Source: a virus. From it: a stretch of 26,396 nt of DNA. Shown here piece after piece: positions 5,328 through 26,324 of the stretch; within the stretch, counting starts at the first letter, position 1, and each line of letters begins with the position of its first letter. Location: positions 1 to 26,396 of IMG/VR virus record IMGVR_UViG_3300032677_000147. The stretch is one strand, 5' to 3'. A model generated the notes under the pieces. That model saw only the letters and a program-made list of their open reading frames with translations. It was not told the DNA's origin and did no database searches. Made by a program: the position numbers and the translations under genes.

Positions 5328-5750
5328 ATGACTTCAACCGCTATTTCAGCACAAGGAACTACCTTTTCTGTTGACACCGCTATTTCTGGTGGCCCAACTT
5401 ATACAGCCGTCGGCAATATTAAAACTTTCTCAGGTTTTGATGGCTCATCTTCTGAGCTTGACGTTACAAACTTGGCAAGTACAGCTAAAGAATACCGCTT
5501 GGGTCTTGAGGATAATGGTCAATTCTCTATTGAGCTAGACCGTGATTTCTCTGATGCAGGACAAACTCAATTATTGGCTTTGCGTGATAGCCAAGTTGGA
5601 AAAACTTTTAAATTGCTTTTGTCAAATGGCGAAAACGCTATTTTTACTGGTTATGTTAAGAAATTTTCTGTAGCTGGCGGCGTTGATGCAATCGTTAAAG
5701 GTTCTGTTGATATTCGTATCTCTGGAGCTGTTGCTTGGGCTTCCATCTAA
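5328..5750 (+). CDS. Major tail tube protein
   Basis: 140 residues. It polymerises into the inner tube of the non-contractile tail, through which DNA passes. The sequence shows the tail-tube pattern: N-terminal strand SAQGTTFSVDT, then VGNIKTFSGFDGSSSELDVTNLASTAKEYRLGLEDNGQFSIELDRDF, where the D-x-T-x-L-x-S-x-A-K-E-y segment is common to siphophage tube proteins of this group. GGAGAATTAAC before the ATG is a good ribosome binding site and follows a double terminator, so the gene may also have its own promoter, though I cannot point to one. Its TAA overlaps the next ATG (TAATG). Confidence 0.88.
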   Translation: MTSTAISAQGTTFSVDTAISGGPTYTAVGNIKTFSGFDGSSSELDVTNLASTAKEYRLGLEDNGQFSIELDRDFSDAGQTQLLALRDSQVGKTFKLLLSNGENAIFTGYVKKFSVAGGVDAIVKGSVDIRISGAVAWASI

Positions 5751-6151
5751 TGTCTAAAAAACTCTTATCAAAAGCGGACATTATTGCCGCTAGTGATTTA
5801 AAGCGTGAAGAAGTAGACGTTCCAGAGTGGGGCGGTAAAGTTCTGGTAACCAGCTTTTCTGCTGATGCAAAAGACGCTGTGGAATACAAGCTTTATAACA
5901 TGAACAACAAAAGCGGCATTGGTATTCGTGCCGCTTATGTTGGACTTGCATTAGTTGATGAATTTGGTCAGCGTCTATTTACAGATGAAGAGTTACCAAT
6001 GCTTGGCACAAAGTTTGCTGGCGCTGTTGATCGGGTGTTTGAAGTTGTTTCTAGGATTAATCGGATCTCTAAAGAGGATCTTGAGGAACTGGAAAAAAAC
6101 TCCGCAGCCGTTACTGGAGACGGCTTGCCTTCCGACTCTGCCTTAAGTTAG
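5750..6151 (+). CDS. Tail assembly chaperone, short form (gpG-like)
   Basis: 133 residues from the ATG that overlaps the tail tube stop by one base; an upstream in-frame ATG at 5735 lies inside the tail tube gene and is rejected. This is the short product of the G/GT pair, which coats the tape measure protein during tail assembly. Motifs seen: DLKREEVDVPEWGGKVLV, the RAAYVGLALVDEFGQRLF segment and FAGAVDRVFEVVSRINRIS, all typical of phage tail assembly chaperones. It ends at TAG. The A AAA AAC slip site at 6094-6100 sends a fraction of ribosomes into the -1 frame to make the long form. Confidence 0.88.
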   Translation: MSKKLLSKADIIAASDLKREEVDVPEWGGKVLVTSFSADAKDAVEYKLYNMNNKSGIGIRAAYVGLALVDEFGQRLFTDEELPMLGTKFAGAVDRVFEVVSRINRISKEDLEELEKNSAAVTGDGLPSDSALS

Positions 6152-6459
6152 GCGTAATTCATCCAGATGTATTACTAAAGCAGCTTAGTTCGGCTCAAAT
6201 GGCTGAATGGGCTGCTTATTTTCAGATTGAGCCAGACGCAGATAGCCGTGTTGATTCTTTGTTATCGCAACAGCTTGCGATGCTAGGAAATATCAATCGA
6301 TCAAATGAAAAAACTGAACCATTTACTCCAATGGATTTTATGCCTTGGGTTGAATTGCCAGAAAAAGAAGTTGTAAAACCAAAAGAGCCAGAACCCATTG
6401 ATCCAAAAACTCAATCGGTAAGGTTAAAAGCGTTGTTCAGCAAAAAAGGGAAGCAATAA
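5750..6459 (+). CDS. Tail assembly chaperone, frameshifted long form (gpGT-like)
   Basis: Predicted 236-residue fusion. Residues 1-117 come from the gpG frame up to the slip site at 6094-6100; reading then moves back one base and continues from C6100 to the TAA at 6457-6459. The -1 frame is open across the whole stretch 6100-6456. It encodes WRRLAFRL, then LGVIHPDVLLKQLSSAQMAEWAAYFQIEP, which is the hallmark of the T extension of lambda-like GT proteins. The first ATG in that frame (6199) lies inside this conserved segment, so a separate gene starting there would lose half the motif. In lambda the T domain recruits tail tube protein while G binds the tape measure. The TAA overlaps the tape measure ATG. 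Confidence 0.85.
6094..6100 (+). promoter_or_regulatory. Programmed -1 ribosomal frameshift site A AAA AAC
   Basis: In the gpG frame the codons are GAA AAA AAC, so the heptamer A AAA AAC sits in exactly the X XXY YYZ phase needed for tandem -1 slippage. It is 51 bases upstream of the gpG stop, in the place where lambda and relatives shift from G to GT. Confidence 0.88.
6106..6125 (+). promoter_or_regulatory. Hairpin downstream of the slip site (frameshift stimulator)
   Basis: Perfect six-base-pair stem AGCCGT/ACGGCT (6106-6111 with 6120-6125) with an eight-base loop, starting five bases after the slip heptamer. That spacing fits a stimulatory element for -1 frameshifting. I did not find a convincing pseudoknot partner by eye. 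Confidence 0.65.
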
Positions 6460-8738
6460 TGTCTACAAGTATTGGCGCACTCAATATCTCGATGTCAGCT
6501 AATACATCATCTTTGCAATCGGACTTTTCTCGTGCTGCTGAGATTGCCAGGCGTGGCGGTAGTGACATTAAAGCTTCTATGTTGGACGCTGCTAATGCGG
6601 CAGAGCATGGTTTTAAAAGCGTTGCTGATTCTATGGGTTTGTTAGAAAGCCCAATTTCAAAAGCGTTAGAAGGATTTGGCGCAGTAGGTTTAGCTTTAGG
6701 TGCGGTAGCTGGTGGCGGATTTGTCTTTAAAGAGCTTGTGGGCGGCGCTATTGAAATGGGTGAGTCAATGGCTAACCTATCCATCAAAACGGGTCTTAGC
6801 GTTGAATCTATTAGCAAATTTACGCTAATTGCTAGTCTTGCTGGAACCCAGATGGACACCGTTGCGGGATTGATGAAGAAATTAGAAATTTCCGCATCGC
6901 AAGCCGCAAATGGCAATAAAAATTTAGCCGCAGTTTATACGGCTTTGGGCATTAGCGTACAAGAACTTAAAACGTTGGCTCCAGATGAGCTAATGACACG
7001 AGTTGCTAAATCCATTCAAGGATTAGACCCTAACACCGTTCAAGATGTAATGAAATCTATTGGGGGCAAGGGTGGGGCAGAGGCTTTAGTGTTTTTGCGT
7101 GAGTTAAATGAAAGATTTGACGATACTCACTCAAAAATATCTACTCAATTTGCTGCTGATGCCAAAGAATTTGGCGATAACATCAAAATAATGACCGAAA
7201 ACACTAAGTATCTTGGTGTTGAGTTCGCATCGCATTTAGTACCTAGCATCAATATTGCTATTGAAGCTTTCAATGAAGCGAGAAAAGCTGGAGATGGATT
7301 CTTTACCAGCCTTTATAACGCAGCCAATTTAAAATTATCGTTATCGGGCGTTGACTTTACTCATGTAGGCGATGAAATTACTTCCGCCCAGGCAAAGATT
7401 GATAAATTAAAAGCTGATGATGCCAGCGCTTCCTCCAATCCTGGAGTTGTGCGTTTAGGCGGAAACAATAGTGAGCTTATCAAAACCCTTGAAGATAGAC
7501 TAACTATCCTTAAAGATTATCAAAAGAAGAATGCGGCAGCTTTGGCAAATCCAGTCGATGCCGATAAAAATAATGATGTTAATGCTGCCCTAGGATTGAA
7601 AAATAATTCTGCTGGTAATAACTTTTTAGCAGCGCTTAAGGCTCAATCCACTCAAGTTGAATCTAACAAAATCGCAATGCTGGAGCTGCAAGCTTCAGAA
7701 AAAGGCGTAGCAGATCAAGCAGCGCCATTAATTGCAAAAATTAAAGAATTAGACGAATCAAGAGGTGTAGATGCCTATGCCAAAAACTTAGAAATTCAAA
7801 ATTCAGACTTAGGATTTCAACAGCAATTAATCGGAAAAAATGTTCAAGAAGTTGAAATTTTAAACATTGAACATAAAAATACGGTTGATTTAGAAAAGCA
7901 AAAGGCTCAACTTACTAAAGAATACGGCGATTTATCGGAAAAAACTTTACAGCGAATGACTGATCTGACGCAATCGGCAACTAGACAGCAAATTGATGCT
8001 GTTCGCCAACGTCAGGCCGCAGAAACTTCATGGAGCGCTGGCGCTAGTAAATCTATTGCAGATTATTCTTATGCCGCTAACAACGCAGCAACAGGCGCAA
8101 GCACCGCTTTTAGTAACGGCTTTAAAAACATGGAAGATGCTGTTGTGAACTTTGCCATGACAGGAAAGCTTAATTTTTCTAACTTTGCAACCAGCGTAAT
8201 AAGCGATTTAATTCGTATTCAAGCCCGTGCCGCTATTTCTGGAATTGCAACTAGCTTAGGTCAAGCCATTGGATTAGGCGGCTACGGATCTGCCACAGAA
8301 GGAAGTTCCAATTTTATTGGCCCATCTTCAGCATTGGCAAACAAAAGCGCAAACGGAAATATTTTTAGCGGCGGAAATGTAATTCCATTTGCTAATGGCG
8401 GCGTTGTTTCAACTCCAACATTATTTCCAATGGCAAATGGTGGAACAGGGTTAATGGGGGAGGCTGGAACAGAGGCCGTAATGCCGTTAACTCGTGACGG
8501 ATCTGGAAAGCTTGGGGTGAAGTCTCTAGGCGCACAAACACCTGGAAACGTCATAAATATTACTGTAAATAATGAAGCTGGTGGAGATGGATACACAGCA
8601 GTTGCCACAGCCAAGAAAAATGATAGCGGAATTGATGTAGAAGTATTAGTTAAAAAAGCAATGGCAACAGACCTTAGAAATAACGGAGCAATGTCTCAGC
8701 AAATGGCAAGCGTTTTTGGTCTTAGAAGGGCAATGTAA
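6459..8738 (+). CDS. Tail tape measure protein
   Basis: 759 residues. It spans the tail lumen during assembly, sets tail length and helps DNA pass into the cell. Residues 1-60 are helical. A glycine/alanine-rich hydrophobic segment near 68-95 (GFGAVGLALGAVAGGGFVF) could cross a membrane on ejection. There follows SLAGTQMDTVAGLMKKLEISASQA, a typical tape-measure segment. Residues 390-530 are long charged helices. Around 560-600 the stretch MEDAVVNFAMTGKLNFSNFA is the lambda gpH C-terminal domain signature, and the MGEAGTEAVMPLTRDGSGKLGV motif near 670-690 is also characteristic. At about 0.15 nm per residue, 759 residues suggest a tail of roughly 110 nm. It starts in a TAATG overlap with gpGT and ends in another with the gpM-like gene. 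Confidence 0.93.
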   Translation: MSTSIGALNISMSANTSSLQSDFSRAAEIARRGGSDIKASMLDAANAAEHGFKSVADSMGLLESPISKALEGFGAVGLALGAVAGGGFVFKELVGGAIEMGESMANLSIKTGLSVESISKFTLIASLAGTQMDTVAGLMKKLEISASQAANGNKNLAAVYTALGISVQELKTLAPDELMTRVAKSIQGLDPNTVQDVMKSIGGKGGAEALVFLRELNERFDDTHSKISTQFAADAKEFGDNIKIMTENTKYLGVEFASHLVPSINIAIEAFNEARKAGDGFFTSLYNAANLKLSLSGVDFTHVGDEITSAQAKIDKLKADDASASSNPGVVRLGGNNSELIKTLEDRLTILKDYQKKNAAALANPVDADKNNDVNAALGLKNNSAGNNFLAALKAQSTQVESNKIAMLELQASEKGVADQAAPLIAKIKELDESRGVDAYAKNLEIQNSDLGFQQQLIGKNVQEVEILNIEHKNTVDLEKQKAQLTKEYGDLSEKTLQRMTDLTQSATRQQIDAVRQRQAAETSWSAGASKSIADYSYAANNAATGASTAFSNGFKNMEDAVVNFAMTGKLNFSNFATSVISDLIRIQARAAISGIATSLGQAIGLGGYGSATEGSSNFIGPSSALANKSANGNIFSGGNVIPFANGGVVSTPTLFPMANGGTGLMGEAGTEAVMPLTRDGSGKLGVKSLGAQTPGNVINITVNNEAGGDGYTAVATAKKNDSGIDVEVLVKKAMATDLRNNGAMSQQMASVFGLRRAM

Positions 8739-9970: not shown

Positions 9971-12900
9971 TGAACGCTACAAATAGCCCTTTGATGAATG
10001 CTATGGATGTTATTTGGCATCCCCATCCAGTCTTAATAGGAGCAGATCGTAAAGTTATCTCTAAAGAGGTTGCACAAGGATCGACAGTTAGAGAAATATT
10101 GCTCGAAACGGGAATTGATGACCGTCAATCAATTATTGTCCTATTAGATGACCGCTTATTAACTGTAGATGAGTGGGATATTATTTGCCCAAAAAACGGG
10201 CAGTTAATTAACGTTCAGGCGGCAGCTAGTGGCGGTGGCGGTGGCGGCGGTGGATCAAACCCATTGCAGATTGTTGCTTTAATTGCGGTAGTTGTTTTAT
10301 CGGTTTATACGGCGGGAGCAGTAGGCGCTGCCTATGGCGCTGCGTGGGGTGCTGCTGCTGGTGCAGCTATTAGTATTGCTGGCTCGATGGTGGTTAATGC
10401 TATCTTTAAAGCCGTTGTTCCAGGAACTGACACAAGCTCAACTAGCGGCGTAAATTCCCAATCTTCACCTACCTATAGCATTACGGGTGGAAGTAATCGG
10501 TCTAGGCCATATGAGTCTATGCCCGTCGTAATGGGAACAATGCAATTTTTTCCAGATATGGGAGCAAAACCATATACAGAGTTTCAAGGTGACGATCAAT
10601 ACTTATATCAGATTTTTAACCTAGGTTTATCTGATTTAGCTCTAAGTAATTGGCAGATTGGAACCAGTCCAATTACAGATTACACAAATTACGCCTGGTA
10701 TGGTTGCGATTCCCAAGGAAGAATAACTTCTTTTCCTGGAAATGTAGATACCATTTCAGGCGGCGTTCTTACTAATGCAAGCGGATGGATGACACGCTCA
10801 AGCTCTACAGATTCTTACAAGCTTGGAATTGATGTTATTACAACCCTTTACTATGCAAATAATAATGGTGGATTAGACTCAACTAGCGTTTCTTTAACTA
10901 TTCAACATAGGCCAACTGGCACATCTTCTTGGATTAATTCAACCATTGAAAATGAAGTTAGCAATACTGTCATTATTTCTGGCGCATCCCAAAGCCCAAT
11001 TAGAAAAACTTACTATATTGACGTTGCAAATGGTGCTTATGACGTAAGAATTTTAAGAAATACCGCAGATTCTACAGATTCCAGAACCCAAAACGCAACT
11101 ACTTGGGACACCTTAAGAAGTTATCAATTAGATACCTCTACTTATGTTGGGCAAAATAGAATTGGCTTGGTAATTAAAGCGTCCGATCAATTAAATGGAA
11201 CGGTTCAGCAGCTTTCGGTCACGGCGATTGCAAATGCTAATTACTGGAACGGTTCATCTTGGGTTTATGGACAGACCAGTAACCCTGCACATTGGTTTAT
11301 GGATTTTTCCAAAGGAAGATTTGATAGCGCTGGAAAACTTCTGTATGGCGTAGGAATGCCAGATTCCCAAATTGATTTGGATGGGCTACATTCTTGGGCT
11401 GCATTTTGTGATGCTGAAAGTTTAAGCTTTAATGCTGTCTTTGATAGCACTCAGACCGCAGCGGATGTACTTACAACAATTGCAAGATGTGGTTTTGCTT
11501 CACCATCATGGGCAACAGGAAAAATAGGCGTTGTTTGGGATCAAAGAAACGCATCTCCAGTAGCTGCATTTGGAATGAGCAATATTTTGCGAGGAAGTTT
11601 TTCAGTTAATTACATAACGGAACAGCTTGCAGAAGAAGTCATTGTTACTTACGTTAATCCAGCAAATAACTGGGTTCAAGATCAAGTTAGGGTAATTGTT
11701 CCAGGCGTAACAAGCCCATCCAGATCAAGCTCGATTAATTTGCTTGGCTGTACCAATCAAGCAATGGCTGGTAAATTTGCAAATTACATTGCCGCACAGC
11801 AATACTACAGAACTCGTCGAATTCAATGGGATTGCGATTTTGAAGGATTTGTATGCCAACGTGGTGACGTAGTGTTGCTATCTCACGACCTTACCCAATG
11901 GGGGTATTCTGGTCGAGTTATTAGCCATACTGGAAACACATTAACAATAGATAGAACTGTTCCAAGAAGTGGAAAAACAGACTATTTAATGCTTAAAAAG
12001 CCAGATGGAACAATGACTACATACACAGTCGTTTCTGGTAGCGGAGATTCAAACTCCTTGACATTAAATGTCGCTCCAGATTTTGAAACTGGAACGTTGG
12101 ATATGGATCATATTTGGTTTTTCTCTCCATTGCCAACTCCAGGAAAGCTAGTAAAAATACTTTCTGTTCAGCCTTCAAGCGAATCTAGGGTTACTGTAGT
12201 TGCAACCGATGAAGATCCAGAGTTTTATTCAGCTTGGGATGGAACTTGGAATGCCGCTTATTCAAATACTTTATTGCTTAATAGCACCCCAATGGTTAAC
12301 TCCGCAACTATTAGCGAGTTGGTGTATATGGGAAGTGATAACAACGTTTTATCGTTAATTACTGTTAGTTTTTATGCGTCTAATTTTGAAAAAGGCGATG
12401 TGAAATGGAGAATTAATGGAGGCGCTTGGAATAGGTTGACTACATATACAAATCAATTTGATTTGACGGTAGACCAAACTGGTTCTTTGGATATTCAAAT
12501 TTTACCCACTTCTGGGACGTTTGCTGGGTCAGTATTTTTACAATCATTTACCGTAAATGGTCAGCCACTTATTCCGCCAGATGTTACGGCAATTACAGAG
12601 CTTTTAATACCAACTGGAATTCAATTAACTTGGAATCAGGTTCCATTACCATCTCTTTATGATTATGAGATTAGGCAAGGAAGCTCTTGGGGAGCATCTT
12701 CTTTAGTTGGATATTACAAAGGTAGCACCGTAACACTTCCACCAAAATCATCGGGTTCTTATACATACTTTATTAAAGCTAGAAACAATAAAAATAGCGA
12801 GTCTACAAACGCTGCACAAGTTTCTGTAACCATTGGGACACCAGCAACCCCAACGTTAAACACAAGCATTATTGGGCAAAATTATGTTTTAAATTGGACT

Positions 12901-23911: not shown

Positions 23912-24946
23912 ATGGCTTACATTAGAAAAACTCTTAAAGGCTATCGAGCCGAGATCGAAATACAAGGTGTACGCAAGAGCGCCTCCTTTGTGACTAAGCG
24001 GGAAGCCTTATTGTGGGTCGCTAAAGAAGAAACAGCTATTCGTGAAGATTCTAAAACTGCGCCAGCCCATAAGTACACCTTAAAAGATGCGCTGGTTAAA
24101 TACCGTGATGAGGTAAGCCCAGACAATGCGGGATCCAGATGGGAGCAAATTCGGATTGATGCGTTTTTAGCTCATCCTGAATGGTTGCCGCTATCCAAGA
24201 AGATTGGACTTATTAACCCTACTGACTTTGAAAACTTTTCTAAAGAACGATCTAAGACCGTCAAAGATGGCACTATTTTGCGGGAATTAGGAATGCTCTC
24301 AGGCGTGATGGAGACCGCTAGGCTGCGTTGGCAATGGGTCAAGGAAAATCCCGTGCGGGATTCTAAGAAGCCAAAAGAGCCGCCAAGTCGTAAAAGGTTA
24401 ATTACTAGACCAGAAATTAAAGCAATCTTAAGGGGTCTTGATTACAGCCCTATAGCGCCACACATCAATTCTTTAACTCAATCTATTGCCGTTTGTTTCT
24501 TATTGGCTCTGCGTACGGGAATGAGGGCAGGGGATATGACGGGACTGCATTGGAGCAACGTCAAACCCCGCCACCTAGTCATAGAGATCGATAAAATTGG
24601 CAGAAGGACGGGAATGGGGCGAGATGTACCCTTGTCTAAAAAAGCCGTTCGCATAGTCAATAAAATGCGTGGTTTTGATAAAGAATCTGTTTTTTCCCTT
24701 AAACCGCAAACTTTAGATGCCCGTTTTAGAACCATTCGAGAACGCCAAGGCTTATCAGGGTTTACTTTTCACGATACACGCCATACTGCGGCAACTTGGA
24801 TGGCTGGTAAATTTAAAAGCAATAAAGACGTAACTGCCCAGCAAGCTATTTTTGATATGTGCAAAATCTTTGGATGGACAGACCCCAAAAGGGCGTTGGA
24901 ATATTACAATCCAAATCCTGAAGATGTGGCCTCCAGATTAGATTAG
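23912..24946 (+). CDS. int: Tyrosine-family phage integrase
   Basis: 344 residues. The N-terminus (MAYIRKTLKGYRAEIEIQGVRKSASFVTKREA) is the typical arm-binding/AP2-like domain of phage integrases. The middle (about 60-150) is the core-binding SAM-like domain. The catalytic domain has Arg205 (in TGMRAGD), Lys228 in the beta turn, His287-x-x-Arg290-His291 (in HDTRH), Trp322 in place of the second His, and Tyr331 or Tyr332 (in LEYYNP) as nucleophile. All catalytic residues are present. There is no ribosome binding site before the ATG; instead the TCCCGC boxes run up to it. The 3' end overlaps the convergent minus-strand gene by 4 bases. It would join attP to a host tRNA 3' end and, with an excisionase, reverse this. 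Confidence 0.95.
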   Translation: MAYIRKTLKGYRAEIEIQGVRKSASFVTKREALLWVAKEETAIREDSKTAPAHKYTLKDALVKYRDEVSPDNAGSRWEQIRIDAFLAHPEWLPLSKKIGLINPTDFENFSKERSKTVKDGTILRELGMLSGVMETARLRWQWVKENPVRDSKKPKEPPSRKRLITRPEIKAILRGLDYSPIAPHINSLTQSIAVCFLLALRTGMRAGDMTGLHWSNVKPRHLVIEIDKIGRRTGMGRDVPLSKKAVRIVNKMRGFDKESVFSLKPQTLDARFRTIRERQGLSGFTFHDTRHTAATWMAGKFKSNKDVTAQQAIFDMCKIFGWTDPKRALEYYNPNPEDVASRLD

Positions 24947-25436: not shown

Positions 25437-25684
25437 GCGATCCTATGGCGCTTAATACTGGTAATGCCCTCTGGCAATGGGGCTTCTTCTTGAGCGAGAA
25501 ACTTACTTTCACAATCTCCATTAACTGCTTTTGCATAGTCAATTTCTACTTTTGCAGTATTGATAATTGTTTGACCAACATCACTAATGGCTTTTGCAGT
25601 TTCTAGCGCAATCGATCCGTCTTTTAATCCACGCATCGTATCGAATAAATACTGCCTTAATTCTTCAATATTATTTTTGCTCAT
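25433..25684 (-). CDS. Small conserved phage protein, function unknown
   Basis: 83 residues. The N-terminal part (NNIEELRQYLFDTMRGLKDGSIALETAKAISDVGQTIINTAKVEIDYAKA) is one long helical region of a type common in temperate phages of Proteobacteria, with the L-R-x-x-L-F-x-T-(M/L)-x-x-L-K-D-G-x-I and (I/A)-Q-x-I-I-(N/D)-(T/S)-A-K-V-E segments. The C-terminal 30 residues are variable and basic at the very end. No catalytic motif is visible. It overlaps the upstream HNH gene by 14 bases and the DUF6378-like gene by 4. Confidence 0.78.
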   Translation of the reverse strand: MSKNNIEELRQYLFDTMRGLKDGSIALETAKAISDVGQTIINTAKVEIDYAKAVNGDCESKFLAQEEAPLPEGITSIKRHRIA

Positions 25685-26324
25685 GTTTTGTTCTCTTATT
25701 TATCTGTCTTGTTAATGCGCCCTTTAATTGCAACAAAAGAGCAATTTCTTTTGGATAGCGATGGTATGTATTTCGATCCATTAATTCGTCCCTGGTCAAA
25801 AGTTCTAAATTTGATATATCGCAATTTTGTTTATTGCCATCTTTAAATACCAACGCCATACCTTTTGGTGGATATTCACCGTGTTGTTTTTTCCAGTTTT
25901 CACGATGGAGCAATCTCCATTGATGCAATCCCTCGGCAATTTTTATTTCTACATATCCATCAACAGATACTCGGGTACTTCCAACTGGCCTATGATTGAT
26001 TGGTTTTGAACCAGGCTTAAAGCGTGTTTCTATGCCACCAATTTGTAAACCTTTCATACCTTTGTTCCAGGGTTTCACACCTTTTACAAATCTTGAGCAA
26101 GCACCTTGTTTCCCATTAGTTCGACCAGAAACAGGAGAATTAAAAAATTCATCAGATTTTTTTAATCCAAGGGAATATGCCTTGTTGTAAATTGACTCAA
26201 TGACAACGCCAATATCTTTAGCAATAATTTCTGATTTCTCATTTGGGTAACGGTTTCTTAAAATCGCGATTTGTTCATCAGTCCAAATATGTCTTTTGGC
26301 CATAAGATTTCGGCTTTTTGTCAT
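25671..26324 (-). CDS. HNH homing endonuclease with HTH and NUMOD-like segments
   Basis: 217 residues. Residues 13-57 (IWTDEQIAILRNRYPNEKSEIIAKDIG...) are a Myb/SANT-like helix-turn-helix. Residues 65-110 contain FVKGVKPWNKGMKG and FKPG, NUMOD-like DNA-binding segments with the PWNKG pattern. The HNH core follows: WRLLHRENW (His140), LVFKDGNKQNCDISNLELLT (Asp162, Asn167, Asn172). This is a typical free-standing phage HNH homing endonuclease. It starts at ATG 26324, overlapping the upstream gene's stop in an ATGA junction; ATG 26303 is a possible second start. Its tight overlaps on both sides suggest it has been fully absorbed into the operon, unlike the HNH gene at 15657. Confidence 0.88.
   Translation of the reverse strand: MTKSRNLMAKRHIWTDEQIAILRNRYPNEKSEIIAKDIGVVIESIYNKAYSLGLKKSDEFFNSPVSGRTNGKQGACSRFVKGVKPWNKGMKGLQIGGIETRFKPGSKPINHRPVGSTRVSVDGYVEIKIAEGLHQWRLLHRENWKKQHGEYPPKGMALVFKDGNKQNCDISNLELLTRDELMDRNTYHRYPKEIALLLQLKGALTRQINKRTKHEQK

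Follow-up and report, generated by a model that had tools for sequence, protein, structure and literature searches.

We analyzed a 26,396-base virus record (IMG/VR IMGVR_UViG_3300032677_000147; referred to here as the window) and found that its tail assembly chaperone gene very probably undergoes programmed -1 ribosomal frameshifting at the slippery heptamer A_AAA_AAC (positions 6094 to 6100, plus strand). The site, its phase, two protein families, a switch of the selected frame, and conservation in relatives are all based on sequence; from these, we infer the occurrence of slippage, its rate, the contribution of a hairpin, and the role in tail assembly. In the proposed mechanism, most ribosomes would stay in frame 0 up to the TAG at 6149 and yield a G-like chaperone of 133 amino acids (aa), while a smaller share would slip back by one base as AAA and AAC occupy the ribosome, continue from CTC (6100), and end at 6459, yielding a 236-aa G-T fusion. 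By analogy with lambda, G and G-T would bind the tape measure protein, with the T part recruiting the tail tube protein, and the slip frequency would set the ratio of G to G-T.

The G-like gene occupies positions 5750 to 6151 (plus strand; stop codon TAG at 6149 to 6151), and its frame-0 codons at the junction are ...CTG GAA AAA AAC TCC GCA GCC GTT ACT GGA GAC GGC TTG.... With base 6094 as X, the X_XXY_YYZ phase of the heptamer matches that of the open reading frame (ORF), so that an in-phase slippery sequence stands at the frame junction, as the initial annotation had claimed (its span, 6092 to 6125, begins two bases ahead of the heptamer). The heptamer lies 48 nucleotides (nt) from the frame-0 stop and is separated from the stem of the hairpin by a 5-nt spacer (6101 to 6105). 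Codon shuffles of the G-like gene contained an in-phase X_XXY_YYZ within the last 70 nt in 11.6% of cases and AAAAAAC in 1.0%. Because three further in-phase AAAAAAC sequences occur in window ORFs taken as genes (at 10191, 14109, and 14597), the motif alone is weak evidence; a chance origin is nevertheless untenable because the site is conserved in relatives, as described below.

Both frames encode recognizable tail proteins. The frame-0 protein matched phrog_344 (tail assembly chaperone; E = 1e-22) and had no match in Pfam. A profile of 39 sequences (the window and 38 relatives) matched the HK97 tail assembly chaperone (PDB 2ob9; E = 3.7e-5), and 2ob9 was also the sole match at E ≤ 0.001 (E = 7.8e-4) for the fold predicted by AlphaFold2 (mean predicted local distance difference test score, 82.5). 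The -1 frame opens at 6085, and its product after the slip (6100 to 6459) matched the Pfam family Phage_tail_T (E = 1.5e-12), as did 33 of 58 -1 translations (the window and 57 relatives) at E ≤ 0.01; 6 of 50 +1 translations matched this family. As had been noticed at the outset, this gpT-type domain reaches the tape measure start: the -1 frame closes at a TAA (6457 to 6459) whose last base, 6459, is also the first of the tape measure ATG, a one-base overlap. The T domain lies in an overlapping shifted frame, without a start codon of its own. The consensus of the 58 -1 translations contains KKLRxRPxRxFxFRLA, and since AAA AAA CTC CGN encodes KKLR, the T domain starts right at the slip site.

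To describe conservation, we used a set of 145 loci plus the window, in which some contigs were fetched twice and 141 sequences had both a G stop and a T match. Part of this set consisted of the best 80 of at least 559 confirmed relatives matched by the peptide DVPEWGG and leans toward relatives with that motif. The counts left out L001 (identical to the window), L050 and L079 (lacking a G stop), and L051, L056, and L061 (lacking a T match). Loci were clustered at 85% nucleotide identity, and cluster counts refer to one locus per cluster, with the window's cluster included; 17 later loci are outside these counts. T homology was also placed by frame in the window and in 59 of 60 relatives, all 60 of these sequences having a G stop. 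It was at -1 in 51 and at +1 in 7, never in frame 0, and undetected in 2; L051 gave a weak +1 T match in this comparison. Among 82 clusters, T was at -1 in 80 and at +1 in 2. Of the 80 -1 clusters, 67 had an in-phase canonical heptamer no more than 12 nt from the T start, compared with 1.4 expected from codon shuffling (116 of 135 when counted by locus). It was within 12 nt of the frame-0 stop in 25 of the 67 clusters (e.g., L010, L015, and L030) and internal in 42. Three of five fetched phage relatives (Jflix2, phiSASD1, and Dubu) have a joined two-piece gene annotated here.

The heptamers of the 67 clusters also bear on whether the ribosome or the RNA polymerase slips. The window has a run of seven A's (6093 to 6099) on which a polymerase could slip and add an A, the -1 frame then being reached via edited transcripts, and poly-A slippery sequences in transposase genes are described as able to serve both mechanisms (PMC3711429). 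The heptamers found were AAAAAAC (38 clusters), AAAAAAG (1), and AAAAAAA (1), but the sites that the other 27 clusters have at the T start, equally in phase, are not homopolymers (GGGAAAC, 18; GGGTTTC, 5; GGGAAAA, 2; AAATTTC, 1; GGGTTTA, 1). Tandem tRNA slippage fits these sites and polymerase slippage does not; we therefore rejected transcriptional slippage, which we regard as very unlikely.

Codon differences between relatives indicated which frame is under selection on each side of the site. The G protein of the nearest relative, L003, is 87% identical to that of the window. Between these two sequences, frame 0 had 48 synonymous and 14 nonsynonymous differing codons before the slip and 0 and 5, respectively, after it, up to the frame-0 stop (Fisher P = 6e-4; three misaligned start codons left out); frame -1 had 1 and 61 before the slip and 5 and 1 after it (P = 3e-6). 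These counts imply that the selected frame switches at or near the heptamer. We then pooled 18 pairs, chosen greedily from 136 with internal slip sites only and no shared locus id; two of the 18 are one pair under different locus ids, and several come from one close group. The pooled synonymous/nonsynonymous counts were 190/77 before and 7/85 after the slip in frame 0 and 8/257 before and 58/34 after in frame -1. Nonsynonymous differences exceeded synonymous differences in frame 0 after the slip in 17 of the 18 pairs (exception, L065-L067). By these codon counts, the slip site is where purifying selection passes from one frame to the other. Together, the protein families, the heptamer conservation, and the selection switch support the initial reading of a -1 frameshift with gpG/gpT-type products before the tape measure gene.

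The same data address two other explanations. If T were an independent gene with its own start, the heptamer would be incidental; there is an ATG-started ORF at 6199 to 6459, and in 19 of the 67 clusters at least one ATG, GTG, or TTG falls in the stretch that runs from where the -1 frame opens to 10 codons past the T start. However, a protein begun at 6199 would lack the beginning of the T domain. In the window, no ATG, GTG, or TTG occurs in the -1 frame ahead of 6199, yet selection already acts on that frame in the interval from the heptamer to the frame-0 stop, and 48 of the 67 clusters lack any such start codon. We rejected independent initiation of T on these grounds and consider it slightly less probable even than polymerase slippage. 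The frame change might also reflect a sequencing error or a decayed gene, as frame breaks at A-runs are a usual class of error. Given that the arrangement is common to 80 clusters from many samples, and that pooled counts show purifying selection on frame 0 before the site and on frame -1 after it, we assign this explanation almost no probability.

Several observations weigh against programmed frameshifting at this site. In Escherichia coli, which may not be the host, A_AAA_AAC is reported to be much less shift-prone than A_AAA_AAG (PMC5009743); a low slip rate would suit a system that needs few G-T per G. Relatives that keep both frames and lack the heptamer, the observation that the initial annotation had named as counting against the frameshift, do occur: 13 of the 80 clusters (19 of 135 loci) lack a canonical heptamer at a distance of up to 12 nt from the T start. 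By eye, 11 of these 13 show other possible slip strings near the T start, namely, GAT TTC or GAT TTA (L012, L019, L046, L105, L115, and L134), CTA AAA G (L013, L036, and L137), and GGG GAA TGA (L043 and L045); L053 has AAAAAAA 23 nt ahead of its T match, and L124 has none of these strings. In view of the 11 exceptions with candidate strings, we read these cases as site turnover rather than as a refutation, and the recurring noncanonical strings may be slip sites. Madraxi (L144; not a cluster representative) lacks a heptamer near T and is annotated with two separate genes, and CRP-823 is annotated with the chaperone only; neither has a joined gene. Pair by pair, synonymous differences in the -1 frame after the slip outnumbered nonsynonymous differences in 9 of the 18 pairs, tied in 5, and were fewer in 4 (L071-L082, L020-L021, L089-L142, and L011-L034), mostly with small counts. 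The remaining points of this kind concern the hairpin.

The window contains the hairpin that had been described five bases past the heptamer (6106 to 6125), with a 6-bp stem (AGCCGT, 6106 to 6111; ACGGCT, 6120 to 6125) and an 8-nt loop. In the predicted fold (-12.6 kcal/mol), the stem gains a U.G pair (6112.6119) and, beyond a bulge, extends to G6104-C6105. Its z score was -1.77 for 35 nt, with 11 of 200 dinucleotide shuffles folding equally well, -0.96 for 50 nt, and -2.62 against codon resampling that preserved the -1 protein; 9.5% of such resamplings of the window had a stem at least as long. By these measures, the window hairpin is only modestly better than chance. It is kept in L003, where one U-A pair is changed to C-G and one U.G pair to C-G; both changes of the U-A pair are synonymous in the -1 frame and so could be neutral. 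In L065 to L067, it loses 2 or 3 of 7 pairs. Among the window, L003, L065, L066, and L067 (four distinct rows), one pair was changed on both sides, and the same was true of 390 of 500 shuffles, so that covariation supports the hairpin no further than the single L003 change does.

Across clusters, the mean z score of downstream folding was -0.65, compared with -0.16 in control windows (P = 0.045), and it was -0.61 relative to resamplings that preserve the -1 protein (67 clusters; P = 0.003). The family-wide stem length did not exceed expectation (5.28 versus 5.07; P = 0.66; 67 clusters). As a family-wide element, the hairpin is thus a weak candidate, with downstream structure slightly above chance and a null stem-length test. 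Downstream folding was stronger when the heptamer was near the frame-0 stop (mean z, -0.92; 25 clusters) than when it was internal (-0.50; 42 clusters). Downstream stimulatory structures are common in G/GT-type systems and are not known to be required in all members. We see the hairpin as a probable helper in the window phage and not as a defining part of the system. Upstream of the slip, GAGGAA (6083 to 6088) is a possible but weak Shine-Dalgarno-like stimulator. Shine-Dalgarno-like 4-mers were found upstream in 48 of the 67 clusters (39.3 ± 2.9 under synonymous resampling), and the GAGGAA element is absent at the corresponding place in L003; such a stimulator is suggestive only.

In six relatives forming two clusters (L024, L025, L026, L028, L029, and L032), T lies in the +1 frame, at roughly the same point in the protein. 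All six keep ACG/ACC AAA AGC ACT GAA where the heptamer would stand, and around the G stop they showed no in-phase canonical heptamer. Beyond the frame-0 stop, the synonymous/nonsynonymous counts in the +1 frame were 22/11 (L025-L032), 23/12 (L028-L032), and 12/0 (L025-L024); the short overlap has too few changes to tell the frames apart. The simplest reading of these sequences is a forward slip of Lys-tRNA on AAA-A, and a slip at TGA may be an alternative. For HSTV-2, +1 frameshifting of a tail gene is stated to be very likely (PMC5009743). This clade is mildly unusual, among the relatives only, and the window remains an ordinary -1 member. If the +1 reading is true, for which we see about even chances, the direction of frameshifting would be an evolvable trait whose variants could be compared side by side. 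Nine of the 17 later loci (L154 to L161 and L163) were read by eye beside four loci of the +1 clade: eight have an in-phase C_CCT_TTC immediately ahead of the G stop, and L161 has C_CCT_TTA there. In L161, A_AAA_AAC and C_CCT_TTA overlap, resembling an intermediate.

The surrounding genes (all on the plus strand) are in the order tail tube, G/GT, and tape measure. The lambda-like major tail (tube) protein gene (5328 to 5750; Phage_TTP_11, E = 1.9e-17) is directly upstream of the G-like gene, whose ATG (5750) overlaps its stop. The tape measure gene (6459 to 8738) matched Tape_meas_lam_C (E = 1.5e-23) and phrog_1716 (E = 1.5e-45). The window also encodes a portal protein, a prohead protease, a major capsid protein, a gpJ-like tip protein, a holin, an endolysin, and an integrase, a gene content that suggests a temperate phage with a lambda-like noncontractile tail; the phage is probably temperate, with the integrase gene at 23912 to 24946. 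An HNH endonuclease gene is on the minus strand near the window end (25671 to 26324). DNA-level searches gave no match for positions 5328 to 8738 in a phage collection or for 5735 to 6459 in plasmids. A profile search of genome contigs with the G alignment yielded one confirmed relative (L062), on a contig of a Burkholderiaceae metagenome-assembled genome, which does not fix the host.

The window is a clean case for annotation: an ORF finder yields G plus a T cut short to begin at 6199, and the 236-aa fusion goes unreported. The slip sites of the relatives form a natural series with which the use of A_AAA_AAC by bacterial ribosomes could be measured.

The slip heptamer of lambda is G_GGA_AAG, and the window differs from lambda in having A_AAA_AAC. 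The initial annotation had singled out this difference; it holds for the window site but is no notable departure, as A_AAA_AAC is the commonest slip site in the relatives and is already in print. In other respects, the system resembles lambda G/GT, in which a G chaperone is accompanied by a -1 G-T fusion that links the tape measure and tail tube proteins, with G and G-T at 30:1, and the cited account describes the G-T frameshift as widely conserved in long-tailed phages (PMC5009743). The G protein of the window matches the HK97 chaperone family (2ob9) in profile and fold, and the two are about 20% identical in the structural alignment. Two genes of an HK97-like chaperone cluster showed 6% and 7% frameshifting when assayed (PMC3711429). 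The virus HCTV-2 uses A_AAA_AAC (PMC5009743), and phage Colossus has GGGAAAC as its slip site (PMC3556154). Further parallels in the site itself are gp93/gp94 of phiCbK and relatives, a chaperone before the tape measure protein and its extended form with the slip site AAAAAAC (PMC3556154), and gp12/gp13 of Acinetobacter phage Loki, for which AAAAAAC was proposed as the tail chaperone slip site (PMC5313236). On these published accounts, A_AAA_AAC at the tail chaperone position had already been published, and the window is an ordinary further case.
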